DNA of 64,000 nucleotides from positions 36,861,536-36,925,535 of the forward strand of contig OZ024897.1 of the NCBI GenBank assembly GCA_964017195.1, in the 5' to 3' direction. The notes under the pieces were generated by a model. The model was not told the DNA's origin and did no database searches. It saw only the letters and a list, made by a program, of their open reading frames with translations. This document shows positions 6,486 through 38,870 of this stretch, piece after piece; position 1 is the stretch's first letter, and every line of letters begins with the position of its first letter. The stretch is from Siderastrea radians. Taxonomy: Eukaryota > Cnidaria > Anthozoa > Scleractinia > Rhizangiidae. The translations under genes and the position numbers were made by a program.

Positions 6486-8930
6486 GCCCCACAATTAATC
6501 AAACTACTCGGTACCTTGGACAAGGCCCACTGTTTATCGTGGGCTTCGTTATTACGAGCAGTGGCAAACTGTGCCACTGCTCGGATCTTCACTGCTTTGA
6601 TGGTTTTTCCAAGCTCTTCTTTCTTCATATCTAGCAAAGCATGGGTATATCATTGTGCGTGAGAATTTCATTCCTTCAGCCATCCATTCATGGTTTCAGT
6701 AAATTTTTTATCATTATATAGATGTACATAAACTACACCGAATATTGTCTTGCCAATATGCAATTCCCTACTTAATTTAACTACTATTTTTAATACCTTC
6801 GGACTGGGATACCCCTTCAAGCCCTTGATGCTCAGAGCATCGTGGATATATACGGCACATCACACTTTCTTTAAGTACGTTAAATCAAAAAAGTGTACTT
6901 TGAAGAAAAAACTCCCCGTTGGAGGCCTTGTTCGTCGAGGGTGTCCAGTCTGCATTAAAAATATCTTCACTGACATTCAATGTTAGATGTAAGGATTACG
7001 TTATTGTTGATGATATGATTTGCAAAATGATACGTCATATTTATAACTACCTGTACAGGAAAGCGTTCCCATCTAGGTAAGTTTCAAACACCTCTTTGAT
7101 ATATATGGCCCAGGTGCCACCTTTCTCTGACCAGCCGGCCAGCTGGCACAGGGTTGCTATGGCTTCACGGGGGAACATCCCATTGTTTGCAATCGCTTGG
7201 TTTATAATGAATGTTGTGGCCATCCCCTGTAAAGTACACAATATGTATTGCTATTAACGGTCGAATTGTATCAAACCCTAATATTAGTATTGTAAGTTTG
7301 TTTCACTGTAGGTTACGTTCTTGTTGTAGCCACCCGCAGAAATCACTTGACTAAATTATACTTATTATGAGGTCCTGAACGTTCGTCGCATTCATCAGTA
7401 CTTGTAACTTAAAGTAGTTTTCTCGTAAATCATTTCAGTTCTTCGCGTTATTAATAAGTGAAACTTACAGATCTGTGACAATGGTGTGTTTCACGACGGG
7501 CATCGAAGCCAGACTTCTGTACAATTTTTTTGAAGTTTCCTGTCAACTCTCGGATAGGTCTTTCATTCTAATTGAAAGCAACGATAACAACAACAGCAAC
7601 AACAATATTAGCTTTATTTGCCATTGGTGTGAACATTTTATCAAAAACTATCTCCCAAAATCTTATTAAGAGAATTACGGTCATATGAAATTTGACGTCG
7701 AGCAAATTTCTCAATACATGCCATTTTTTTCAGAGTTACATACAGTTGCTAGTTTGAAACATTGCATTCCTGTCTTTTAATGAGAAGTTCTATGCATTCG
7801 ACCATGCATATGTTGTAGTTCAATTTTATCCTTGGTTCAATTTTTATTTTTTATTTTTTGTTTCATATGCACTATCAGATATTAACATCAAAAGAACAAA
7901 GGAAAGTAAAATTTGGACCAATGATAAACTGATTGAACTACTTCCGACAAGTAACAACTTCTACGAATGATTTCTGTAATCACATAATCGCATCGGACAT
8001 TAGTTAGTGTTGCTTAAATCACATGTTCCTATAGTTATACTTACGTTGATGGTGCCACTTGATTGGTCGATGTGGCAAAGGAGGGGCCATTGCTTGGCCT
8101 CCTCCTTTAACTGGAAATTTCCAGTGGTAAATGCCTCCATCGGCTCAAGCAGAAAGGCTTCCCTTACCGCCAGGAATATAAATCCCAAAGTGGCGGCATC
8201 ATAAGGGGAGCCTTTCTCTAGCGGTGTAAATGTAAAGGGTCTCCTACGAAAAACAAAATGGAAATTCAATAAGTTTGTAGTACTTTTTTCCGTAGCGTAT
8301 TTTTCTCGCCTGATTTTGCAAAAACCACCCCCCTCAAGACGTATGTCATAAGTTGGTGGCGACACTGTAGATTAATGTGACACATAGCTGTCAGTTCAGA
8401 TGATGGAATGAAAGGCTTAAAATTAAAATATGACTATGAATAAAAGAAAACATATTGTTGTGGCATCTTAAGGAAATCTATCTCTTATAGTTCAATTCAG
8501 TATTACTTGACTAACGGCAACAAACACAGGAGGAATAAAACGAAATGATTTAGCTCCTGTAGACTTTTTGTTCAGTGACTGCATCTTTCGGATTTATGTC
8601 AGTGAAAGTTAGCGTCTTTGCACAAAACAAATTCATCGAATAAAGTCAGTTACATAAACAATGCCACAATGACTGGCACAAACGAAGTATTTTCCGTTGC
8701 TACTGTCATGATTTGCTCACCTGTCAGACTTATTGACGGCGTTCTGTTTTTCCCTCACGAAAACGATCGTCAAACTAAATTGGCCATTATCCTCCTTTCT
8801 ATTAAGAGAAATATAATTACTTCAGTTAAAACTCATAATCACAAACATAACGCAAGTTATAAATGTAAAGAAGATCATCGCAGTTATTAACGCAACTTAT
8901 GCAGTTGCGAAAAGAAAGCCTGAAAAAATC

Positions 8931-9002
8931 AGGCTTGCCGGGATTCGAATCCTGACCTCTGCGATACCGGTGCAGCGCTCTAACCGATTGAGCTAACAAG
9001 CC
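8931..9002 (-). tRNA. tRNA-like unit, left arm of palindrome (pseudo-tRNA)
   Basis: Reads GGCTTGTTAGCTC..., with a D arm (GCTC/GAGC), a B box and a 3' side pairing with the acceptor. The anticodon position reads GGT with C rather than T before it, the anticodon stem has an A-C mismatch, and the T-arm/acceptor side is one base short. This copy also has an A in the B box (GGATTCGAATCC). I read it as a SINE head, not a translating tRNA. Confidence 0.6.
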
Positions 9003-9042
9003 AACTGGGAGCTGGAACCAACTTAATGACCAGCTCCCAGTT

Positions 9043-9114
9043 GGCTTGTTAGCTCAATCGGTTAGAGCGCTGCACCGGTATCGCAGAGGTCAGGGTTCGA
9101 ATCCCGGCAAGCCT
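9043..9114 (+). tRNA. tRNA-like unit, right arm of palindrome (pseudo-tRNA)
   Basis: Mirror copy of the unit at 8931-9002, with an intact B box GGTTCGAATCC and an A-box-like TAGCTCAATCGG. It has the same structural faults. It is followed by a TGATTTTTTCA hairpin/T-run that could terminate pol III. Confidence 0.6.
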
Positions 9115-9478
9115 GATTTTTTCAGGCTTTCTTTTCGCAACTGCATAAGTTGCGTTAATAACTGCGAGGACCCTCTTTACATTTATTTCTTCATTCCGCA
9201 GTTCAAATATATGAATTTCATATATTCATAATTTCATAACGCAAGTTACTTATCAATTTTTAGGAAATTTTACTTGTGTTTCCAAAAGGAGCTAAATTGT
9301 TAAATTGATACCCGTAAGTTAATTTATTTGGCGTTTAAAATGGTGTAAAATGGGTTCTGTTTCAGAAGTAGCTAGGACGTTGCCTATTGACAGTGCTTTA
9401 ATAATTGAAGCTGATTTTTGTGTTTTACGCAACCAAGTCGTTAATCGTTATCAAATTACTGGAATTCCCCCATTGTTA

Positions 9479-15937: not shown

Positions 15938-15943
15938 CGCATC
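15938..15943. repeat. target site duplication CGCATC, left
   Basis: CGCATC directly precedes the element start AGTAG. The single-copy empty site is at 7989-7994 in copy A. Confidence 0.95.
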
Positions 15944-16014
15944 AGTAGTAATGTGGGTCACTATGAGTCAATTTATGCAGAAACGAGAACAATGGGGAAC
16001 CCAATCGAACCCAA

Positions 16015-16140
16015 TCGAACTAACCCTAACCAATCGAACCCAATCGAACTAACCCTAACTTTATTTTTGTTTTAACCCTAAGTCGCCATCTTGGATTTAA
16101 CCCTAACTTTATTTTTGTTTTTAACCCTAACTTTAAGTCC
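16015..16140. repeat. telomere-like CCCTAA motifs near left tip
   Basis: Five TAACCCTAA-type motifs are interspersed with AACCCAATCGAAC and TTATTTTTGTTTT spacers. The right arm has the mirror set of TTAGGGTTA at about 23,375-23,500. Confidence 0.85.
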
Positions 16141-16349
16141 ACCATTTTTATTTCTTGTTCCTTCGAGGGGAAGGTTTCTTCTCAAAATTCGCCATTTTGG
16201 ATCGGGAAGGTTTCTTCTCCAAATTCGCCATGTTGGATTTAAAGACTGTAATTCTCTCTGTGACTTTCACCTTATCTCTTACGAAAGTAAAGACTTTCTT
16301 ACTAAGTCTCTTACTTGAAAAAGAAAAAAGAAATTTGGTTGTTGTTGCT

Positions 16350-16400
16350 GGATTCGAACCTGGCAAATTTAGAAAACCTGATACTTACCTGACTGCGCCA
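16350..16400 (-). promoter_or_regulatory. pol III A box / B box pair in left arm
   Basis: On the minus strand TGGCGCAGTCAGG (16,388-16,400) is followed 27 nt later by a perfect B box GGTTCGAATCC (16,350-16,360), the internal promoter layout of tRNA genes. The surrounding sequence cannot fold an acceptor stem, so this is a tRNA-like promoter rather than a tRNA. Transcription would run outward toward the element tip. Confidence 0.55.
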
Positions 16401-16671
16401 AGCCCGGGCTGACTGAAAGAGTAGGACAATTTGTTCTAGGGATCAATTGGAACAATAGAGTTTTTTTGGAAAGCTGTCTACGTATAGATGTTGTTATCTT
16501 ACGCAAAAATTCTTTTTGCTATGTATTACTCGCTTGTAAAACAAACTCTTGCAAGGTCATAAACCTTTGTCTTACGGATATCATTAGCCACCCAACCAGT
16601 TTACGGCCGCTCGCGTCGGGGCTTAACTTACGGATACCGATCACACTTAGAAATTTTTATCATCAAACTAC

Positions 16672-16860
16672 ATGATACCGATCAGACTTGGAAATTTTTT
16701 ATCATCAATCTCTAAACCTCCTCCTCCTCCTCAACATAGTTATCAAAACGAATTCACTCCTCCTCCTCAACATAGTTATCAAAACGAATTCACTCCTCCT
16801 CCTCAATTTCTACCATATATTTGGTATGTAGACCCTGAGGAAAAAACAAACTTCAAATAG
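16672..16860 (+). CDS. small proline-rich ORF in left arm (62 aa, hypothetical)
   Basis: The frame starts at ATG in a tandemly repeated stretch and contains two copies of a 12-residue unit (PPPQHSYQNEFT), from a 36-bp DNA repeat, then a short tail ending NFK. It converges on the 309-aa finger gene, with 55 bp between the stops. The same frame exists in the right arm. Arguments for a gene: intact in both arms, tight packing. Against: short, repeat-derived, no promoter recognised. Function unknown. Confidence 0.3.
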   Translation: MIPIRLGNFLSSISKPPPPPQHSYQNEFTPPPQHSYQNEFTPPPQFLPYIWYVDPEEKTNFK

Positions 16861-16915
16861 GTTACACAAGTTTTATTCGACAAGGAACGAAACAGATCGA
16901 TTGTACTAGTAGGTT

Positions 16916-17845
16916 CTACAAAGGTTGTGTGAAACTGGGTGGTATACCAAACGGGTCGTATCGAGGACGCTCATTACCCTCTTCCGGACTGCGCTCGTCA
17001 GGACTTTCGTCTGGACTTTCGTCCTCTTCATCAGTGTCTTCATCGTCCATATCATCCTCTTCGTCTGTGTCGTCTTCATGGTTCTCTTCGTCGTCTTCGT
17101 CCATGTCCTCATCATCTGTGTCGGGTTCTTCCATGGGTTGGAAGACCCGATTCAACAGATACTTGCGCTGGTTCACAGCAGCTTCCACGGCTTCATTGAA
17201 ATCCATATCTTCCTCTTCTTGGAATTTCTTACGGGTTTCCAAGATGGCCTCATGGATCGGATCCTCTCTAAGTACATGAACCCATTTGACATGGTCAATA
17301 TAGACCTGTCTCAATGCTTTCCGTAGCTCAGGCAACATCTCATTATAGGCTCGAATTTGAGCCAATTTCTTACCAAGACCCTCTTTTCGTAGTGTTTTCA
17401 TCACAACTTTAAAGTCCTTTAACTTTTCGATCTTAACCCTTTTTCGAAACTCGTCCCAGGGAACCATATCTGAGACTTCATCTTCCATCTTGACGGGGGA
17501 TGTAGGTGATTCGGGGAATACATCCAGTGGTTTCAGACTATCGGGGGACATGGGATCTCCAAACGCGTCGTACATAAACTTCTTTCCTGTTTTTGGATTA
17601 ATGTGTACTCTAGGACTCTCTAGATCTGTAGGTTCAACTGATTCAACGGGTTCAACTGTTTCTGTTGTTTCCGCTGGACTCGGCGGCTCCAAAGTTAGAC
17701 TGAGTGGCTCTGCCTGTCTTGACGGAATGACTTGCTGGTTCAAAAAATGTTCTCTCTCGTTTTCTACTAAATGAGTGTTTTCGTGACGCTTTCGATTATC
17801 CGGTCGAGTAAATTGTTTCAGACAGTAACGACACGTCGTACTCAT
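16916..17845 (-). CDS. 309-aa zinc-finger acidic-tail protein, left copy
   Basis: Intronless 309-codon frame in the left inverted repeat. Residues 5-25 form one C2H2 finger (C5, C8, F12, H21, H25). A Pro/Glu/Thr-rich linker follows (about 45-75), then a segment with PKTGKKFMYDAFGDPMSPD, a charged helical region (about 120-230), and a strongly acidic Asp/Glu tail (about 238-285) ending in a PRYDPFGIPPSF-type motif. It is nearly identical to the right-arm copy, differing at one noticed residue (Pro instead of Arg in FQ-x-MEEPD). A finger plus an acidic tail suggests DNA binding or transcriptional/packaging regulation; this is inference. No family recognised. TATATAAG lies just upstream and overlaps the preceding gene's stop. 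Confidence 0.75.
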   Translation of the reverse strand: MSTTCRYCLKQFTRPDNRKRHENTHLVENEREHFLNQQVIPSRQAEPLSLTLEPPSPAETTETVEPVESVEPTDLESPRVHINPKTGKKFMYDAFGDPMSPDSLKPLDVFPESPTSPVKMEDEVSDMVPWDEFRKRVKIEKLKDFKVVMKTLRKEGLGKKLAQIRAYNEMLPELRKALRQVYIDHVKWVHVLREDPIHEAILETRKKFQEEEDMDFNEAVEAAVNQRKYLLNRVFQPMEEPDTDDEDMDEDDEENHEDDTDEEDDMDDEDTDEEDESPDESPDERSPEEGNERPRYDPFGIPPSFTQPL

Positions 17846-17906
17846 CGAGACATCTGCACGGTTTGATGATTGAACAAAAATGATCTAAAATGATCAGAAT
17901 TGTGAC

Positions 17907-18128
17907 TTATATACATTGCTCACAACATGAGGTCGAGGCTACATCAGACTGTGATAAGTCCGCTAGTACCTCTTGAAGCGCTTTTTGAATTTTTTCCAAA
18001 GCCTGATGTATGTCATCCTTCGGTTTTGATACCTTTAGCTTATGTTTCCAACAGTAATGTTTTTCGTGACGATTTCGATTCCGATTGATGTTAAAGGGTT
18101 TGTCGCAATATTGACATAGATAAGACAT
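17907..18128 (-). CDS. 73-aa single-finger protein, left copy
   Basis: Starts with a finger at the same spacing as its neighbours: C5, C8, F12, H21 and C26 (or H24). A Lys-rich stretch and an amphipathic helix (about 40-62) follow, ending with a Cys pair. It lies 61 bp upstream of the 309-aa gene in the same orientation. A TATA box (TTTATA at 18,184-18,189 on the plus strand) lies about 57 bp before the ATG. Identical in the right arm. Probably a small DNA-binding protein; role unknown. Confidence 0.65.
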   Translation of the reverse strand: MSYLCQYCDKPFNINRNRNRHEKHYCWKHKLKVSKPKDDIHQALEKIQKALQEVLADLSQSDVASTSCCEQCI

Positions 18129-18424
18129 GTTTGCTCCATCAAGTGTTGACTCCGAATGGTATTTTAGTGTCTAGAATGACCCCTTTATAGTCAATTTTGT
18201 AACGCATGCATGACCCAAGCTAGACCCAGTCCCTACTCTTTTTCTGGAAACCTAGTAGCCATATTTACTTGGTAATCATTTCAACGAGCTTCTAAAAGCT
18301 TCTAAAAGCGCTAATACTTAACGCTGATTGGTTCATTTACTTGGTGGTCAAAAGATTTTTGCTAATACTTAACGTTGATTGGTTCATTTACTTTGTTGGT
18401 CAAAAGCTTCTAGTAAAAATTGGT

Positions 18425-18440
18425 GGTTCCTAATAGAACC
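18425..18440 (-). terminator. 16-bp dyad downstream of left D-x-D-G gene
   Basis: GGTTCCTAATAGAACC lies 85 bp after the stop codon at 18,525. The same dyad with small changes follows two other genes of the element (20,147-20,162 and 21,119-21,134). Called as a possible 3'-end signal by position only. Confidence 0.4.
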
Positions 18441-18524
18441 GTTTGTTTTAGTCTTGCACAAACTTCATTCCTTCGTTTGTTTTGTATCTCAGCAAACCTT
18501 TGCCACTGAATACAAGTCGCTTTT

Positions 18525-19049
18525 CTACGAAAATCTGTGTGAAACAGACTGCATCCATTGGTAAAACAGATAGGTTTCTTGCTTGGGACAATGTAGTTGA
18601 GGTTGTGTATGATGACCACATCTGAACCCAGGATTCAATCCGATAGCCACCAATGTTTCTATCTTTGGACAACCAAAGTCTTCTAAATTCACACAAGGAA
18701 TCTGTAGCTCGTTGAGTAGATTCTTTTCCAGACATCCACCCTTGTAAGCTACTAACCAACGCTCTGGCGTTCGACAACTTCGATACAGAGTATCCACGAT
18801 GGGTTTGACCATATGTTGTGGGTGGGCTTTTTCTTGAGATCTGGTTTGCCAAGGGAGTCCATGCACATGTCGGTAGACATAGTGACAAGTCCGTTGATCT
18901 TTCTTATCCAAGTAGAAGAACGGTAGTGGGTTGTCAAACATCCAACTGAGACGTCCTTTTTTCAGACTATAAACACCTAGTTCGCGTGCAATAAATCCTG
19001 AACGGATACGATATCCATCCAAATCAACAATCATACAGATGTGTTCCAT
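18525..19049 (-). CDS. 174-aa D-x-D-G protein, possible RNase H-fold nuclease (left paralog)
   Basis: Intronless 174-codon frame starting next to the divergent promoter. The N-terminus has a hydrophobic strand running into D9-L10-D11-G12-Y13, followed by a conserved Arg-Glu-Leu-Gly (about 24-27). The C-terminus has a Cys/His cluster (FGCPK, CGHH, HCPKQE). A leading D-x-D/E strand plus a distal Cys/His set resembles DnaQ/RNase H-fold exonuclease-like and Maelstrom-type domains, but that is a hypothesis and catalytic completeness cannot be judged. Its paralog at 20,562-21,073 is inverted, about half identical and frameshifted, so this is the intact member. Confidence 0.65.
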   Translation of the reverse strand: MEHICMIVDLDGYRIRSGFIARELGVYSLKKGRLSWMFDNPLPFFYLDKKDQRTCHYVYRHVHGLPWQTRSQEKAHPQHMVKPIVDTLYRSCRTPERWLVAYKGGCLEKNLLNELQIPCVNLEDFGCPKIETLVAIGLNPGFRCGHHTQPQLHCPKQETYLFYQWMQSVSHRFS

Positions 19050-19277
19050 GTCGACTAAGCTCGCTGTTAACTCAAACTGATTAAAGCTTACCTTGGATCA
19101 TACCTAACAGGTCCTGACTTACCCCTTGACGTCATTGTTGTATAATGTCGCTATCTCTTTGTCGGTATGGTAGACTTATGACGTCACGTGTCACACCCTA
19201 AACATGTCCCAACATGCCCAATGACGTTACACCCAACTTGTTATAACCAATGGGTAGTCATTTCTAAAAGCAAAAAG
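19050..19277. promoter_or_regulatory. divergent promoter with two TGACGTCA sites
   Basis: The 228 bp separates the left D-x-D-G gene (minus) from the plus-strand ORFs. It contains two perfect palindromic CRE/ATF sites, TGACGTCA at 19,127-19,134 and 19,179-19,186. The second runs into CACGTG (19,185-19,190). TATAATG lies at 19,141. CRE sites bind CREB/ATF bZIP factors in animals; activity here is inferred. Confidence 0.55.
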
Positions 19278-19586
19278 ATGGTTGGTTGTTTTCTCTATCT
19301 CTCGTCAAGTTTTACGGATTGGTTTCTTTACAAGACACATCTCTACTTGTGTAAGCAGCTCTATGAAGGACATGATTTACCAGACTCGACAGACGACCCT
19401 TTACAAGTGATTGAACTCTGTCAAGGGAATATCGGGCGTTGGATCGTGTTTATGGTTTGGTTGGAAACATGCCCAAACGCATTCTATTGTTTTCAAGAAA
19501 TACGTCGACGTTACACTATTCCTTCTATTGTGACGTTGGATGGTCTGCTACGGTTAAAAGAGACAACTCAGAACCAGACAACCTAA
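19278..19586 (+). CDS. 102-aa hypothetical protein of the element
   Basis: Frame open from ATG at 19,278 (AAGATGG context); an upstream in-frame ATG at 19,221 would add 19 residues. The product is rich in aromatic residues and Cys, with a hydrophobic start (MVGCFLYLSSSF) and a middle reading WIVFMVWLETCPNAFYCF. It lies 8 bp before the finger gene's ATG, in a different frame, implying a shared transcript or internal initiation. No recognisable family; no clear signal peptide. Confidence 0.45.
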   Translation: MVGCFLYLSSSFTDWFLYKTHLYLCKQLYEGHDLPDSTDDPLQVIELCQGNIGRWIVFMVWLETCPNAFYCFQEIRRRYTIPSIVTLDGLLRLKETTQNQTT

Positions 19587-19594
19587 CTTCGACT

Positions 19595-20092
19595 ATGGCT
19601 TACCTTTGCTTTCGTTGTGGCAAATTGTTTACTCAAAGAACTTATCGCAATTATCATGTTAGAGACGAAATTTGTATAAGACCTCTGGTAGAACGAAGAA
19701 GATATCAGTGTCGTTTCTGCGTATCCAAGTTCACTCGCAAAGACAATCAACAACGACACGAAAAGACTTGTAAAGAAAGACATAGATTTCCTTGTAGCTA
19801 TTGCGATGCAACATTCACTACCGAGGGACAACGTCAGAGACATGAAGGTTGTTGTTTTCAAGTCCCACTAGAACCTATGGGAGAAGAACGGATGGAAGAT
19901 CGATTTGAAAAATTACAGATTCTTCAACACAACCCAGAAGTTTGGCAAGGTTATGTTCATGCCTCCAATGGAACCAGCTATGGATATTGGTTGTCTCAAG
20001 ACGATAGACTCTGCTATCTTGGTTTGGATCATGAAACCCTGAATAAACGGTTAGCTACGATCGAAGAATGTCAACGATGGATGTACGCTTAG
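19595..20092 (+). CDS. 165-aa triple zinc-finger protein
   Basis: Starts at ATG in a favourable context (ACTATGG). Three C2HC-type fingers are visible: C5-C8-H21-C27, C39-C42-H55-C59 and C67-C70-H83-C87. A C-terminal part of about 75 residues reads LGLDHETLNKRLATIEECQRWM near the end, probably helical. The first finger occupies the same residues (5, 8, 12, 21) as in the 73-aa and 309-aa proteins, so these genes share an ancestral N-terminal module. A 16-bp dyad follows the stop by 55 bp. Likely nucleic-acid binding; no precise role can be assigned. Confidence 0.7.
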   Translation: MAYLCFRCGKLFTQRTYRNYHVRDEICIRPLVERRRYQCRFCVSKFTRKDNQQRHEKTCKERHRFPCSYCDATFTTEGQRQRHEGCCFQVPLEPMGEERMEDRFEKLQILQHNPEVWQGYVHASNGTSYGYWLSQDDRLCYLGLDHETLNKRLATIEECQRWMYA

Positions 20093-20146
20093 GTGATACA
20101 TTCAAAACAAACGAAGGAATGAAGTTTGCGCAAGACTAAAACAAAC

Positions 20147-20162
20147 GGTTCTTTTAGGAACC
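20147..20162 (+). terminator. 16-bp dyad downstream of triple-finger gene
   Basis: GGTTCTTTTAGGAACC, 55 bp after the stop. About 40 bp upstream of it (ACGAAGGAATGAAGTTTGCG...) is also shared, in inverted orientation, with the 3' region of the left D-x-D-G gene. Confidence 0.4.
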
Positions 20163-20561
20163 ACTCAATTCTAAGTAAAGTTTATGACCAACAAAGCGTA
20201 AGAAATAACAAGCCTATACTCGGAAGGTAAGCTATACTCACTCACTCACTACATGGTTTGGACTACATAAAGTCACTCACAGATACATAAAATCTTCGGA
20301 GATGAATAATTAAGGTTCAGGTGGCAGCTTCGCTGCCGACGACTATAAGTTCGGGTTATGTTCGGGTTGCTAGGAATAGGGTTGCTAGGTTACCTCACCG
20401 CTAATTTATTTCCTGTTGTCTCACTTCCATGTTGAACTCACTTCCGGTTAGGGTTGGCCCGCTTTGCGGGCTAGGGTTAGAGCCCTCATTAACTCCCTGC
20501 ATATTCACTTCCGGTTTACGACCTCAAACCTGCCCACCTAGTGAGGTTGACTAAGAAGAAC
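20163..20561. other. unique centre segment with short hairpins
   Basis: No gene. Contains perfect short hairpins (GGCAGCTTCGCTGCC at about 20,322; GCCCGCTTTGCGGGC at about 20,457) and TAGGGTT motifs resembling the telomere-like units of the arms. Confidence 0.5.
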
Positions 20562-21073
20562 ATGGAACACATCTGTATGATTGTTGATTTGGATGGGTAT
20601 CGAGTGAAGCATCAATCGTATATTGTTAGAGAATTAGGTCTTTACAGTTTACAACACGGTAGTTTCAGCTGGTTTTTCGAAAACAAACTACCTTACCTCT
20701 CGTTGGAAAAGCGAGATCGTAAAACAGTCAACTATGTCTACCATCATATTCACGGCTTTCGATTTGAATCAAGCAAGCAAGAAAAAGCCCTACCTCAACC
20801 TATGGTCAAACCCATCATGGAGTCAGCCTATCTACGATCCAGAACACAACAACATACCACGGTCGCTTACATTAGGGAGGATGTTTGGAAAAGAATCTAC
20901 TCAACGAGCTACAGATTCCTTGTGTGAATTTAGAAGACTTTGGTTGTCCGAAAGTAAAGAAACTCATGGGGATGGATGAAGGATTCACCTGTGGTCGTCA
21001 CAAGAAACCCACTCACCACTGTCCCAAACAAGAAACCTATTTGTTTTATCGATGGATGCAGTCTCAACTTTGA
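20562..21073 (+). pseudogene. right D-x-D-G paralog with frame break
   Basis: Begins with ATG and the same D9-x-D11-G12-Y13 motif as the left copy, and ends with the same Cys/His cluster (CGRH, HHCPKQE). The reading frame is interrupted. Comparison with the left copy shows two extra bases near 20,870-20,885, so the first frame stops at 20,927 while the conserved C-terminal part continues in another frame to 21,073. Either a pseudogene, a sequencing error or, less likely, a programmed shift. Flanked downstream by the 16-bp dyad at 21,119. Confidence 0.65.
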
Positions 21074-21118
21074 AACCTTTTTTCTCAGCAAAGAATTTGT
21101 GTGGGATTACAAACCAAC

Positions 21119-21134
21119 GGTTCTATTAGGAACC
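21119..21134 (+). terminator. 16-bp dyad downstream of right paralog
   Basis: GGTTCTATTAGGAACC, 46 bp after the stop at 21,073; the third copy of the shared dyad. It is the mirror of 18,425-18,440 and forms the inner edge of the inverted repeats. Confidence 0.4.
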
Positions 21135-21369
21135 ACCAATTTTTACTAGAAGCTTTTGACCAACAAAGTAAATGAACCAATCAACGTTAAGTATTAGCAA
21201 AAATCTTTTGACCACCAAGTAAATGAACCAATCAGCGTTAAGTATTAGCGCTTTTAGAAGCTTTTAGAAGCTCGTTGAAATGATTACCAAGTAAATATGG
21301 CTACTAGGTTTCCAGAAAAAGAGTAGGGACTGGGTCTAGCTTGGGTCATGCATGCGTTACAAAATTGAC

Positions 21370-21375
21370 TATAAA
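21370..21375 (+). promoter_or_regulatory. TATA box of right 73-aa gene
   Basis: TATAAA within CTATAAAGGG, about 60 bp upstream of the ATG at 21,431. Mirror copy in the left arm at 18,184-18,189. Confidence 0.5.
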
Positions 21376-21430
21376 GGGGTCATTCTAGACACTAAAATAC
21401 CATTCGGAGTCAACACTTGATGGAGCAAAC

Positions 21431-21652
21431 ATGTCTTATCTATGTCAATATTGCGACAAACCCTTTAACATCAATCGGAATCGAAATCGTCACGAAAAAC
21501 ATTACTGTTGGAAACATAAGCTAAAGGTATCAAAACCGAAGGATGACATACATCAGGCTTTGGAAAAAATTCAAAAAGCGCTTCAAGAGGTACTAGCGGA
21601 CTTATCACAGTCTGATGTAGCCTCGACCTCATGTTGTGAGCAATGTATATAA
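21431..21652 (+). CDS. 73-aa single-finger protein, right copy
   Basis: Identical in sequence to the left-arm protein (C5, C8, F12, H21, C26). Its stop codon TAA at 21,650-21,652 is embedded in TATATAAG (21,646-21,653), which sits about 65 bp before the next ATG and looks like the TATA box of the 309-aa gene. Promoter and stop therefore overlap, a sign of virus-like compaction. Confidence 0.65.
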   Translation: MSYLCQYCDKPFNINRNRNRHEKHYCWKHKLKVSKPKDDIHQALEKIQKALQEVLADLSQSDVASTSCCEQCI

Positions 21653-21713
21653 GTCGCAATTCTGATCATTTTAGATCATTTTTGTTCAATCATCAAACCG
21701 TGCAGATGTCTCG

Positions 21714-22643
21714 ATGAGTACGACGTGTCGTTACTGTCTGAAACAATTTACTCGACCGGATAATCGAAAGCGTCACGAAAACACTCATTTAGTAGAAAAC
21801 GAGAGAGAACATTTTTTGAACCAGCAAGTCATTCCGTCAAGACAGGCAGAGCCACTCAGTCTAACTTTGGAGCCGCCGAGTCCAGCGGAAACAACAGAAA
21901 CAGTTGAACCCGTTGAATCAGTTGAACCTACAGATCTAGAGAGTCCTAGAGTACACATTAATCCAAAAACAGGAAAGAAGTTTATGTACGACGCGTTTGG
22001 AGATCCCATGTCCCCCGATAGTCTGAAACCACTGGATGTATTCCCCGAATCACCTACATCCCCCGTCAAGATGGAAGATGAAGTCTCAGATATGGTTCCC
22101 TGGGACGAGTTTCGAAAAAGGGTTAAGATCGAAAAGTTAAAGGACTTTAAAGTTGTGATGAAAACACTACGAAAAGAGGGTCTTGGTAAGAAATTGGCTC
22201 AAATTCGAGCCTATAATGAGATGTTGCCTGAGCTACGGAAAGCATTGAGACAGGTCTATATTGACCATGTCAAATGGGTTCATGTACTTAGAGAGGATCC
22301 GATCCATGAGGCCATCTTGGAAACCCGTAAGAAATTCCAAGAAGAGGAAGATATGGATTTCAATGAAGCCGTGGAAGCTGCTGTGAACCAGCGCAAGTAT
22401 CTGTTGAATCGGGTCTTCCAACGCATGGAAGAACCCGACACAGATGATGAGGACATGGACGAAGACGACGAAGAGAACCATGAAGACGACACAGACGAAG
22501 AGGATGATATGGACGATGAAGACACTGATGAAGAGGACGAAAGTCCAGACGAAAGTCCTGACGAGCGCAGTCCGGAAGAGGGTAATGAGCGTCCTCGATA
22601 CGACCCGTTTGGTATACCACCCAGTTTCACACAACCTTTGTAG
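21714..22643 (+). CDS. 309-aa zinc-finger acidic-tail protein, right copy
   Basis: Same architecture as the left copy: one C2H2 finger at residues 5-25, a PEST-like linker, a charged helical middle and a long Asp/Glu-rich tail. It differs from the left copy at one noticed residue (Arg in FQRMEEPD). Intact 309-codon frame with no intron. The persistence of two intact copies in inverted arms implies either recent insertion or arm-to-arm gene conversion. Function unknown. Confidence 0.75.
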   Translation: MSTTCRYCLKQFTRPDNRKRHENTHLVENEREHFLNQQVIPSRQAEPLSLTLEPPSPAETTETVEPVESVEPTDLESPRVHINPKTGKKFMYDAFGDPMSPDSLKPLDVFPESPTSPVKMEDEVSDMVPWDEFRKRVKIEKLKDFKVVMKTLRKEGLGKKLAQIRAYNEMLPELRKALRQVYIDHVKWVHVLREDPIHEAILETRKKFQEEEDMDFNEAVEAAVNQRKYLLNRVFQRMEEPDTDDEDMDEDDEENHEDDTDEEDDMDDEDTDEEDESPDESPDERSPEEGNERPRYDPFGIPPSFTQPL

Positions 22644-22698
22644 AACCTACTAGTACAATCGATCTGTTTCGTTCCTTGTCGAATAAAACTTGTGTAAC

Positions 22699-22887
22699 CT
22701 ATTTGAAGTTTGTTTTTTCCTCAGGGTCTACATACCAAATATATGGTAGAAATTGAGGAGGAGGAGTGAATTCGTTTTGATAACTATGTTGAGGAGGAGG
22801 AGTGAATTCGTTTTGATAACTATGTTGAGGAGGAGGAGGAGGTTTAGAGATTGATGATAAAAAATTTCCAAGTCTGATCGGTATCAT
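22699..22887 (-). CDS. small proline-rich ORF in right arm (62 aa, hypothetical)
   Basis: Mirror of 16,672-16,860 with the same two PPPQHSYQNEFT units. It converges with the 309-aa gene, which stops at 22,643. Confidence 0.3.
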   Translation of the reverse strand: MIPIRLGNFLSSISKPPPPPQHSYQNEFTPPPQHSYQNEFTPPPQFLPYIWYVDPEEKTNFK

Positions 22888-23158
22888 GTAGTTTGATGAT
22901 AAAAATTTCTAAGTGTGATCGGTATCCGTAAGTTAAGCCCCGACGCGAGCGGCCGTAAACTGGTTGGGTGGCTAATGATATCCGTAAGACAAAGGTTTAT
23001 GACGTTGCAAGAGTTTGTTTTACAAGCGAGTAATACATAGCAAAAAGAATTTTTGCGTAAGATAACAACATCTATACGTAGACAGCTTTCCAAAAAAACT
23101 CTATTGTTCCAATTGATCCCTAGAACAAATTGTCCTACTCTTTCAGTCAGCCCGGGCT

Positions 23159-23226
23159 TGGCGCAGTCAGGTAAGTATCAGGTTTCTAAATTCTCATCTT
23201 CTTCTAAATTTGCCAGGTTCGAATCC
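23159..23226 (+). promoter_or_regulatory. pol III A box / B box pair in right arm
   Basis: TGGCGCAGTCAGG at 23,159-23,171 and GGTTCGAATCC at 23,216-23,226, with 44 nt between. The spacing is longer than in the left arm because of a small duplication (TTCTAAATT repeated). T-runs follow at about 23,242-23,260. Confidence 0.55.
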
Positions 23227-23374
23227 AGCAACAACAACCAAATTTCTTTTTTCTTTTTCAGTCTTTAAATCCAACATGGCGAATTTGGAGAAGAAACCTT
23301 CCCGATCCAAAATGGCGAATTTGGAGAAGAAACCTTCCCCTCGAAGGAACAAGAAATAAAAATGGTGGACTTAA

Positions 23375-23500
23375 AGTTAGGGTTAAAAACAAAAATAAAG
23401 TTAGGGTTAAATCCAAGATGGCGACTTAGGGTTAAAACAAAAATAAAGTTAGGGTTAGTTCGATTGGGTTCGATTGGTTAGGGTTAGTTCGATTGGGTTC
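23375..23500. repeat. telomere-like TTAGGG motifs near right tip
   Basis: Five TTAGGGTTA motifs within about 125 bp, mirroring the left tip. They are spaced, not a pure tandem array. Confidence 0.85.
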
Positions 23501-23563
23501 GATTGGGTTCCCCATTGTTCTCGTTTCTGCATAAATTGACTCATAGTGACCCACATTACTACT

Positions 23564-23569
23564 CGCATC
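23564..23569. repeat. target site duplication CGCATC, right
   Basis: CGCATC follows the last element base; sequence then continues GACATTAGTTAG as at 7,995 in copy A. Confidence 0.95.
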
Positions 23570-37239: not shown

Positions 37240-38870
37240 CAGGAAAGGAGAGCCGAGGCAGAGTTCAGGTACTGTTTGAATATAGGCCTGCGGCCATTAT
37301 GTCGGCGACTCGTGAGCGCGTGGCTAGAGGCAATGTCAAATAGGCCCGAAAGGCGTCTGAGCGCCAGTCCCCGTGGAGCTTTATCAAGTGTTCTGGTACA
37401 CCAGACTGGTAGGCGAAAGTGGCGCCACCGCGACGGAAGCTGTGCGGGAAAAAATGCTGGGGATCGAGGCCGATGGCAGAGATGAGACGCTTGAGGGAGG
37501 TGCTGAAGATGGAGAAGGTGAGGGGACGAAGACCAGATGCGGTAGGCAGGCAGAAAAGTGGCGCTGTCAAGGAGGCTGGAACTAAGGAGAAGAAATGGAG
37601 CAGCGCCGATACGGGGCACAAGGCGGAGCCCGGAATGCTGGGGAGCGGAATTAGGAGGATGCCTTCATTATGTTGCAGGGTCTTGGTCCAACGAATACGA
37701 AGGATGGCTCCAGACTCTGTAAACTTGATATCGCGGCGAGCAAGATGGCGGCTAGGCTTGAAGGAACCAAAAGAGGCGACGGTGAGGTTGGACTTACGGA
37801 GAAAGGAGAAGAAAGCGGTGCAGAATAAAGCCCAAACCGCAGCGTGAGAAGGAATTTCCAAGGACAAATGTTGGCGAAACTGGTGCAGTATAGCGGGAGT
37901 GATCGGGTGTTTCTGACGTGTAGCAGTTCCTAATAGGCGTTTCAAACCACGCTTGGTTAAAGAGACCGCAAAGCTATCCAAGGCGTCAGCAGAGAAACCA
38001 TTGTAAAGATGTAGGAGACGAACAGCATTAAGGTGATTCAAAATATACTGGAATGAAGATGTTTTGCAAGCTAAGTAGGAAGCGTAGGACGCGACGGTGT
38101 GCGGTGACGCTGGGAGAGGTACCAGGCAATAAGTACAGCAAAAGTGTAAAAACGATTTCCACTGCGAATGCTAGTTGCGGAAAGTGCCGGGGGCATAGGC
38201 GTGGGGTTGTATCTGTGGGACAAGTTGTTGCAGTGTAGAAGCGGACAGTAGCGGGGTTAACTTTGGTAGAGGAGGCGAGACGACATCTGCGAAGTAAGAG
38301 AGAAAGCATTAAAACGCGATCTGAAGGTCAAAAAATCGCATTGGACAAGCCACGTGGGTGGTTGAAATATGACTGGTCAGCGCGTGAAATTGGGCCTTGT
38401 GATAAGGATATAGGTGCCAACGGCTAAGGTGATCAGCGAGAGAGTTTTGACGACCGGGAATGTGAATGGCAGACATTTCAAAATCGTAAAGGGAGGAGAG
38501 GAACTAAATTTCATGTAGACATAGTTGCATGCCGAGGGTTCTGGAACGGCCCGAATTCAATGCCTGAACGCTGTTGCTATTGTCGCAGTGAAGAATAAAC
38601 CGTAGTCCACGCAAAGCAGGGCCCCAGAGCTTGAGAGCCACCATGATGGAGAGGAGCTCCAAGGTGTTGATATCATCACCAAAATGGTGGAGGATTGGTG
38701 CCGGAAAAGGGGTATGGAAAAACTGACCATTAAAATAACCGCCAGCGCCAGTGTTGCAAGCGTCGGTGGAGAGGTGGAGGGAATCGCTGATCCAGGGGGA
38801 AGTCTTGATAAGAGAGATGCCGTTGAAGTTGGGAAGGAAATGACAGTTTCAGTCACGTTATTTATTTAAA
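37240..38870 (-). mobile_element. DIRS-like tyrosine-recombinase retrotransposon fragment, degenerate
   Basis: Minus strand, 5' to 3': an RNase H domain (about 38,815-38,430) with the acidic set TDAC, NTLELLSIM, CDNSNSVQALN and ADHLSRW, then a tyrosine recombinase (about 38,290-37,265). The recombinase shows the first catalytic Arg in FLRKSNL, HSFRRGG (H-x-x-R), HGDWRSDAF and the Tyr of RAYL. RNase H joined to a tyrosine recombinase is diagnostic of DIRS-type elements. In-frame stops at 38,504-38,506 and 38,171-38,173 and absence of the reverse transcriptase show a dead, truncated copy. Its 5' end meets a poly-C tract just before the NF2 promoter region. Confidence 0.85.
37265..38041 (-). pseudogene. 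tyrosine recombinase of DIRS-like element (partial frame)
   Basis: A 258-codon open segment with the C-terminal catalytic domain of the phage-integrase fold. Catalytic residues visible: Arg in SFLRKSNLTV, H-x-x-R in PHSFRRGGATF, His/Trp in LHGDWRSD, nucleophile Tyr in AFRAYL. In DIRS elements this enzyme integrates circular DNA copies without target duplication. The N-terminal part lies upstream beyond a stop at 38,171, so the gene is broken. Confidence 0.8.

Follow-up and report, generated by a model that had tools for sequence, protein, structure and literature searches.

A probable gene-carrying satellite of Polinton elements in the coral Siderastrea radians and its histone-type 3′ stem-loops

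Non-autonomous Polinton families, such as those of Repbase, keep the tips of a Polinton and use the machinery of another element, and virophages and satellite viruses with helpers are gene-carrying parasites of a larger DNA element. Vertebrate Mavericks have the terminal motif (AGT)2//(ACT)2 (PMC8097293). IS3EU and GingerRoot likewise make 6-bp duplications, with the termini TA..TA, occasionally TG..CA in GingerRoot (PMC10045372), and Ginger1 and Ginger2 have TGTNR 5′ ends, with 4-bp CCGG/CCGT duplications in Ginger1 (PMC2836005). Six histone 3′UTR (3′ untranslated region) stem-loops, found with Rfam, are counted in a set of polinton-like viruses and virophages (PMC12220804). Here we describe an element of 7,620 bp in a stretch of 64,000 bp (the window, all of which was analysed) from the genome of Siderastrea radians. 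We suggest, with a probability of about three in four, that it is a gene-carrying non-autonomous satellite of Polinton/Maverick elements, and that the stem-loop genes of the satellite and of its helpers are given histone-type mRNA ends.

The element ends in AGTAGTAATG...CATTACTACT, with exact AGTAGT...ACTACT termini, and its inverted ends are identical, starting with AGTAGTAATGTGGGTCACTATGAGTC. It lies within one copy of a segment duplicated in the host genome, while the other copy keeps the empty site; this paralogue matches the flanks of the element at 98.1% over 875 bp on the right and at 93.7% over 1,071 bp on the left. The 20-base tip, searched with up to 3 mismatches, matches the window at the two element ends only (shuffle mean 0.01). 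The 6-bp duplication and the inverted repeats, which begin with AG and contain (AGT)2, are those of Polinton/Maverick elements. The AG..CT ends differ from the termini of IS3EU and GingerRoot, and the AGTAGT ends and unrelated 6-bp duplications differ from those of Ginger1 and Ginger2. Exact inverted ends, a CGCATC duplication and the empty paralogue had been pointed out in an earlier reading of the same DNA by a model (the original prediction), and all of them are present in the sequence. The same reading gave arms of about 2.45-2.5 kb. The outer ~2.5 kb are indeed nearly identical, with length differences of 69 bp and 17 bp and a handful of single-base differences, but the homology extends across 3.1 kb at 90.2%.

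The host genome (804.8 Mb) was queried with 157 bp of the tip region, and 49 matches were obtained, many of which pair into elements of ~7-9 kb or 21-26 kb. Eleven more short copies and two long elements were read; with the element of the window this makes 12 short elements. Exact 6-bp duplications flank 11/11 further short copies, every one with a different sequence, and thus 12/12 with the window included. Both long elements have 6-bp duplications and tips matching the short elements. The window tip is 94.4% identical to that of the C2 element over 54 columns and 91.7% identical to that of the C1 element over 60 columns, and the tip of the short copy L021 is the same as the C1 tip at 60/60 bases.

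The long elements are Polintons (Polinton/Maverick, adintovirus-like). In C2, Pfam names an integrase (rve, PF00665, with a chromodomain), a PolB of 1,285 aa (DNA_pol_B_2), an adenovirus-type protease (PF00770), PLA2, GRF-finger proteins and a kinase. The match of its ATPase is A32-type with a score below the cut-off. Two frames of 345 and 458 aa, without a Pfam match, are assigned as capsid-type by their position, their length and the gene order of Polintons. The gene set of C1, judged by its frames, is similar.

The satellite carries p309 and p73 twice, once in each arm; the inner arm ends hold DLDG1 and DLDG2, and the centre holds p134 and the gene of a 165-aa protein. In p309, which is strongly conserved, Pfam matches are limited to a weak C2H2 finger and to low-complexity sequence, and in p73 Pfam gives no finger match. 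Polymerase, integrase, ATPase and capsid genes were not detected in the window element with Pfam and PHROGs or by tblastn with Polinton proteins. Since the core genes, integrase and protein-primed PolB, are missing, the element is not an autonomous Polinton. DLDG1 has a relative in the C2 Polinton with 43% identity over 176 columns, and p134 has one with 40% over 98 columns; this latter relative, the p124 frame, overlaps the integrase frame at its start. The two long elements yielded no match to p73 or to the 165-aa protein. Broken fragments of p309 lie on the minus strand within the full-length C1 Polinton (L014:5076-5627), which hints that p309 formerly belonged to Polintons, or else that a satellite was inserted at this place or recombined with it. 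The element probably works like a Polinton and partly derives from one. It shares with C2 and C1 the tips, the 6-bp duplications, the AGTAGT..ACTACT ends, the DLDG gene, the p124/p134 frame and the stem-loops. Unlike them, it has no integrase, PolB, protease, ATPase or capsid-type gene, and it carries p309, p73, the 165-aa finger gene and ~3-kb arms. It differs from the non-autonomous Polinton families in having retained five or more gene types together with histone-type 3′ stem-loops, and from virophages in being an integrated transposon family in which no capsid or polymerase genes were found.

The original prediction had seen a Polinton-like element, perhaps a parasite or satellite of a Polinton, with no polymerase, integrase, ATPase or capsid gene. 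The genome agrees with this: none of these genes was detected in the element, and the search proposed there for full-length Polintons with the same tips leads to the 21.6- and 23.2-kb Polintons and to the 60/60 match of L021. It had also named two outcomes that would speak against it, namely tips of a non-Polinton family with its own transposase and a lack of other copies with 6-bp duplications. The tips match a Polinton, and 11/11 other short copies have such duplications. Its alternative of an unnamed class is not supported. The gene set, called unfamiliar, is so only in part, since relatives of both the D-x-D-G gene and the central 134-aa frame occur in the full Polintons of the host. Small zinc-finger proteins and a D-x-D-G pair are there as described, but the list missed the 121-134-aa frame at 19182-19586 and three stem-loops, and the second D-x-D-G gene is frameshifted.

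The gene types of the satellite are retained throughout the family. p309, p73, p134, the 165-aa gene and DLDG1 were detected in 12/12 short elements, some of them only in pieces (p73 in L027 at 42%). When 17 frames of the C2 Polinton served as queries against the same elements, DLDG and p124/p134 were found in 12/12, a scrap of PolB in one (L025, not the window element), scraps of p126 in two (L025 and L027) and the other 13 frames in none; capsid, ATPase and protease genes are thus in 0/12. p309 lies on both strands in 10/12 short elements and is single in L025 and L027; because these two also have shorter repeats, the long arms look derived. The ratio of nonsynonymous to synonymous substitution rates (dN/dS) against the window copy is 0.18-0.38 for p309 and 0.10-0.48 for DLDG1 (four pairs each with dS above 0.1), and 0.63 and 0.35 for the two such pairs of the 165-aa gene. 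It is ~0.5 for p134 at dS 0.06 and 0.82 for p73 of L025, and in closer pairs it reaches 1.35 (DLDG1 of L024), resting on a handful of changes. Stops are present in 0/55 best-matching gene segments compared, some of which are part of a gene only. DLDG1 and DLDG2 differ from each other with dN/dS 0.29 at dS 0.94, which makes them much older duplicates than the arms. By these values, p309 and DLDG1 are evolving under purifying selection.

Three other origins of the element have to be weighed against these data. It may be an internally deleted Polinton remnant that spreads passively, with its leftover genes inert. The core genes are gone, while the tips and two accessory genes are common to Polintons; L025 still has a scrap of PolB, and L025 and L027 have scraps of p126; the dN/dS values of close pairs, up to 1.35 from few changes, are uninformative, and DLDG2 is broken in the window copy. 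We nevertheless consider a remnant improbable, given that five gene types persist in 12/12 copies, that dN/dS is well under 1 in the eight informative pairs of p309 and DLDG1 with no stop in the 55 segments, that dN/dS is likewise low in the old DLDG1/DLDG2 pair, and that neither p73 nor the 165-aa protein turned up in the two long elements. That p309 or the finger proteins are a new type of recombinase, so that the element moves by itself with borrowed Polinton-like ends, would fit the strong conservation of p309 together with its weak Pfam matches. It is very improbable, however, as the tips are up to 60/60 identical to a Polinton tip and the accessory genes are shared. Membership of another superfamily with 6-bp duplications, IS3EU or GingerRoot, with a mere resemblance to Polintons, is hardly credible. 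The length of the duplication is common to them, but complete IS3EU families end in TA..TA (PMC10045372), and the AGTAGT..ACTACT tips of the element match a Polinton bearing integrase and PolB in the same host genome.

Stem-loops were searched with the Rfam model RF00032 (gathering cut-off 34 bits). Three of them follow genes of the window element, and besides the two above the cut-off no other match above it was found in the 64-kb window. RF00032 matches above the cut-off occur in 11/11 further short copies and in both long elements (26 matches). Nine matches appear in the long elements when the threshold is relaxed, and eight of them, with E ≤0.0014, lie 11-32 nt past a stop codon. Of these eight, two follow the kinase, two p126-type frames, two p140, and one each a frame of 73 aa and one of 56 aa. 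In the C2 pieces no stem-loop was found after the integrase, capsid-type frames, protease, ATPase or PolB, and the middle pieces of the long elements (L012 and L015) have none. Genome-wide, 75 matches were scored, 73 of them above the cut-off, and 35 of the 75 (the best 30 and the last 5) were classified. Eleven of these 35 lie behind histone frames at 25-29 nt, 19 behind Polinton-related frames, and 5 are unassigned; nine of the 11 histone frames were put to Pfam, and 9/9 were confirmed. The 19 Polinton cases are not all independent, because L041-L044 are near-identical and L030 and L055 lie in the C1 element already read.

The hairpins are of the histone type, with a 6-bp stem, a 4-nt loop and ACCA close past the stop codon. 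Among 15 distinct stem-loops, 90/90 stem pair cells are paired. A double change from C-G to U-A is present in six of the 15, in every case at one pair, and the covariation score exceeds all 500 shuffles. Host histone genes have AAAGCAATGACC 12-13 nt past the stem, with at most one mismatch in 9/11. The same downstream element, again with at most one mismatch, follows the stem in 11/19 Polinton cases, 9 of them exact; shuffled downstream sequences average ~5 mismatches. These genes are thus like replication-dependent histone genes in the stem, the ACCA and the short distance from stop to stem, and many Polinton genes also in the host downstream element. They are unlike them in being non-histone genes, in the diverged downstream element of the short elements and in the AATAAA that is often nearby. 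The account of stem-loops in PMC12220804, in the parts available, is a count only, whereas here the stem-loops are tied to specific genes, to the host downstream element and to a satellite. A degenerate stem-loop pattern was also run on viral contigs; the 2 that matched (L001 and L002) are taken as chance, and L002 is phage-like by its frames.

The stem-loops could be genuine histone-like hairpins and still be a frozen capture from a host histone gene, with the mRNAs polyadenylated normally. This is favoured by AATAAA signals that lie at or shortly after the stem-loops, in several Polinton genes and in over half of the short-element cases, and by the divergence of the short-element downstream element. 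We consider it unlikely, though far from negligible, since none of the 15 distinct sequences has lost stem pairing, the spacing from stop to stem is as short as in host histone genes, and the signal stands behind several different Polinton genes (kinase, p126, p140, DLDG). Moreover, in the window copy no AATAAA was found within 1.5 kb after its three stem-loops, and AATAAA is near some host histone genes too (3/11, within the stretch inspected).

Several observations weigh against a satellite whose stem-loop genes receive histone-type ends. The stem-loop at 20142 falls just short of the Rfam cut-off. The count of changed pairs is not above that of shuffles (328/500 reach it), and covariation at a single pair may be a single old change. 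The short-element stem-loops mostly have 4-5 mismatches to the host downstream element, its upstream part differing and TGACC being kept. At several Polinton genes, and at more than half of the 35 short-element stem-loops found by pattern, an AATAAA overlaps the stem-loop or comes soon after it; with AATAAA near many stem-loops, these mRNAs may be polyadenylated. For the U7 small nuclear RNA, RF00066 found no match in the host genome, nor any in its control genomes, and a pattern matched 2 sites, as many as its reversed control (2), with neither site U7-like. The number of long elements read is two, and in one of them, C1, PolB and DLDG are in broken frames. Finally, we infer the action of helpers from the shared tips.

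We suggest that the satellite is mobilised by helper Polintons, which would provide integrase and PolB in trans, and perhaps capsids too, with the shared tips as the place of action. The transcripts with stem-loops would be processed and regulated like replication-dependent histone mRNAs, that is, bound by SLBP, without a poly(A) tail and abundant in S phase. Such an ending would couple expression to the phase in which DNA replication can be used.

The tips of the 12 short elements are of two types, AGTAGTAATG in 5 and AGAGTATATG in 7. The window element and L018 are 99.8% identical over a 912-nt core and have different tip types; their first ~45 nt give no BLAST alignment, and homology restarts at about nt 43-48. 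In L023 both ends have a AGAGTATATG tip outside an AGTAG-type tip that lacks its first six bases. From the near-identical interiors with two tip types it appears that tips are exchanged, and a satellite may in this way gain access to different helpers. Inspection by eye shows that both types have AG at positions 1-2, ATGT at 8-11 and, in most copies, CA at 16-17; they are therefore not taken as unrelated, and one integrase might read both.

Taken further, these observations allow a joint proposal, which we hold tentatively and at somewhat less than even odds: Polintons took over the 3′-end code of host histone genes, stem-loop and downstream element, for a set of their accessory genes, and the satellite family exploits these Polintons, keeps the stem-loops and swaps the terminal ~45 bp at both ends at once, maybe changing its helper. 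The exonuclease-fold protein common to both may act on these RNA ends. DLDG has the features of the DEDDh 3′-5′ exonuclease fold, a class that includes the histone stem-loop exonuclease 3′hExo. In 30 aligned sequences the active-site residues, assigned by motif and not by coordinates, are D9 in 29, D/E at 11 in 28, E108 in 29, H153 in 26 and E158 in 25; the pattern has E where D is usual in DEDDh exonucleases. DLDG received no name from profile searches of Pfam, PHROGs and PDB, and p309 only a C2H2 finger. Weak Pfam hits in the DLDG relatives were dismissed (Lipl32, with a best E of 0.002, in 4/30 members; the rest in one or two each).

Public protein clusters contain relatives of DLDG (39), p309 (44) and the 165-aa protein (8), and the sole informative name among them is the coral Oculina patagonica. 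Several clusters agree in the length of their longest contig (for example 8,452,029 and 4,266,177 bases), which suggests that the genes are linked elsewhere. No relatives were found in a viral contig collection with the DLDG and p309 alignments and the tip, nor in prokaryote genome contigs with the two alignments.

A histone-type ending, if functional, offers a nuclear DNA parasite a simple means of timing its expression to S phase. In the openly licensed PMC literature the only mention of histone stem-loops in Polinton-like elements that we met is the count in PMC12220804. The genome presents, in an animal, a probable pair of helper and satellite among virus-like transposons; tips are common to both, genes have been retained, and tips seem to have been exchanged. 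Such a pair is a natural system for studying how Polinton satellites arise and persist.

Coordinates of the probable satellite, its genes and signals in the window, and of the two long Polintons in the host genome
Feature	Position	Strand	Remark
Probable non-autonomous Polinton (satellite), whole element	15944..23563	.	7,620 bp; inverted ends, duplication, empty paralogue
Left target-site duplication CGCATC	15938..15943	.	
Right target-site duplication CGCATC	23564..23569	.	
Uninterrupted paralogous target site	7989..7994	.	single CGCATC
Left tip	15944..15990	+	AGTAGTAATG type; resembles tips of two long Polintons
Right tip	23517..23563	-	left-tip sequence inverted
Left arm of long inverted repeat	15944..19051	.	
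Right arm of long inverted repeat	20560..23563	.	
p309, left copy	16916..17845	-	weak C2H2 finger, conserved central domain, acidic tail
p309, right copy	21714..22643	+	differs from left by one residue
p73, left copy	17907..18128	-	small C2H2-like protein; finger by eye
p73, right copy	21431..21652	+	
DLDG1	18525..19049	-	174 aa; DEDDh-exonuclease fold; relative in long Polinton
DLDG2, N-terminal piece	20562..20927	+	window copy frameshifted
DLDG2, C-terminal piece	20876..21073	+	other frame
p134 open frame	19182..19586	+	ATG 19221, 121 aa; relative of Polinton p124
165-aa C2H2 protein, central gene	19595..20092	+	207 aa from ATG 19469
Histone-type 3′ stem-loop	18401..18445	-	80 nt after DLDG1 stop; 35.8 bits
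Histone-type 3′ stem-loop	20142..20186	+	50 nt after stop of 165-aa gene; 32.8 bits, just below cut-off
Histone-type 3′ stem-loop	21114..21158	+	41 nt after DLDG2 C-terminal stop; 36.0 bits
AATAAA after right p309 gene	22682..22687	+	mirror signal at left copy starts 16877, -
Long Polinton C2	G000:C2:31362219-31385435		23.2 kb; duplication CCAAAG
Long Polinton C1	C1:1546841-1568483		21.6 kb; duplication ATTGTT

The DLDG1 and p134/finger genes are divergent, and the ~100 bp that separate them (19127-19228) contain one TGACGT (CREB/ATF-like) as well as two TGACGTCA palindromes; this is possibly a shared promoter. TATA boxes stand upstream of p73 and p309 in both arms, at 21370 and 21646 (+) and at 18189 and 17913 (-).

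Both arms contain, by eye, tRNA-like A and B boxes with T-runs behind them (~16340-16420 and 23147-23235), and the 69-bp and 17-bp inserts fall in this region. At these sites neither ARAGORN nor Rfam called a tRNA; the boxes are perhaps remnants of a tRNA like those near the ends of the long Polintons, where Val(tac), His(gtg) and Trp(cca) (L011:647-1170) and His and Trp (L014:796-1100) are present. The short element L027 has His, Trp, Met and Ala near its ends (900-1178 and 8269-8450). tRNAs occur in polinton-like viruses, 558 being counted in the virus set of PMC12220804. In the window, two tRNA-Thr genes in inverted orientation (8929-9116) lie near the duplicated host segment. An open frame of 301 aa at 37265-38170 has, by eye and by its motif, the look of a tyrosine recombinase (Crypton/DIRS-like).

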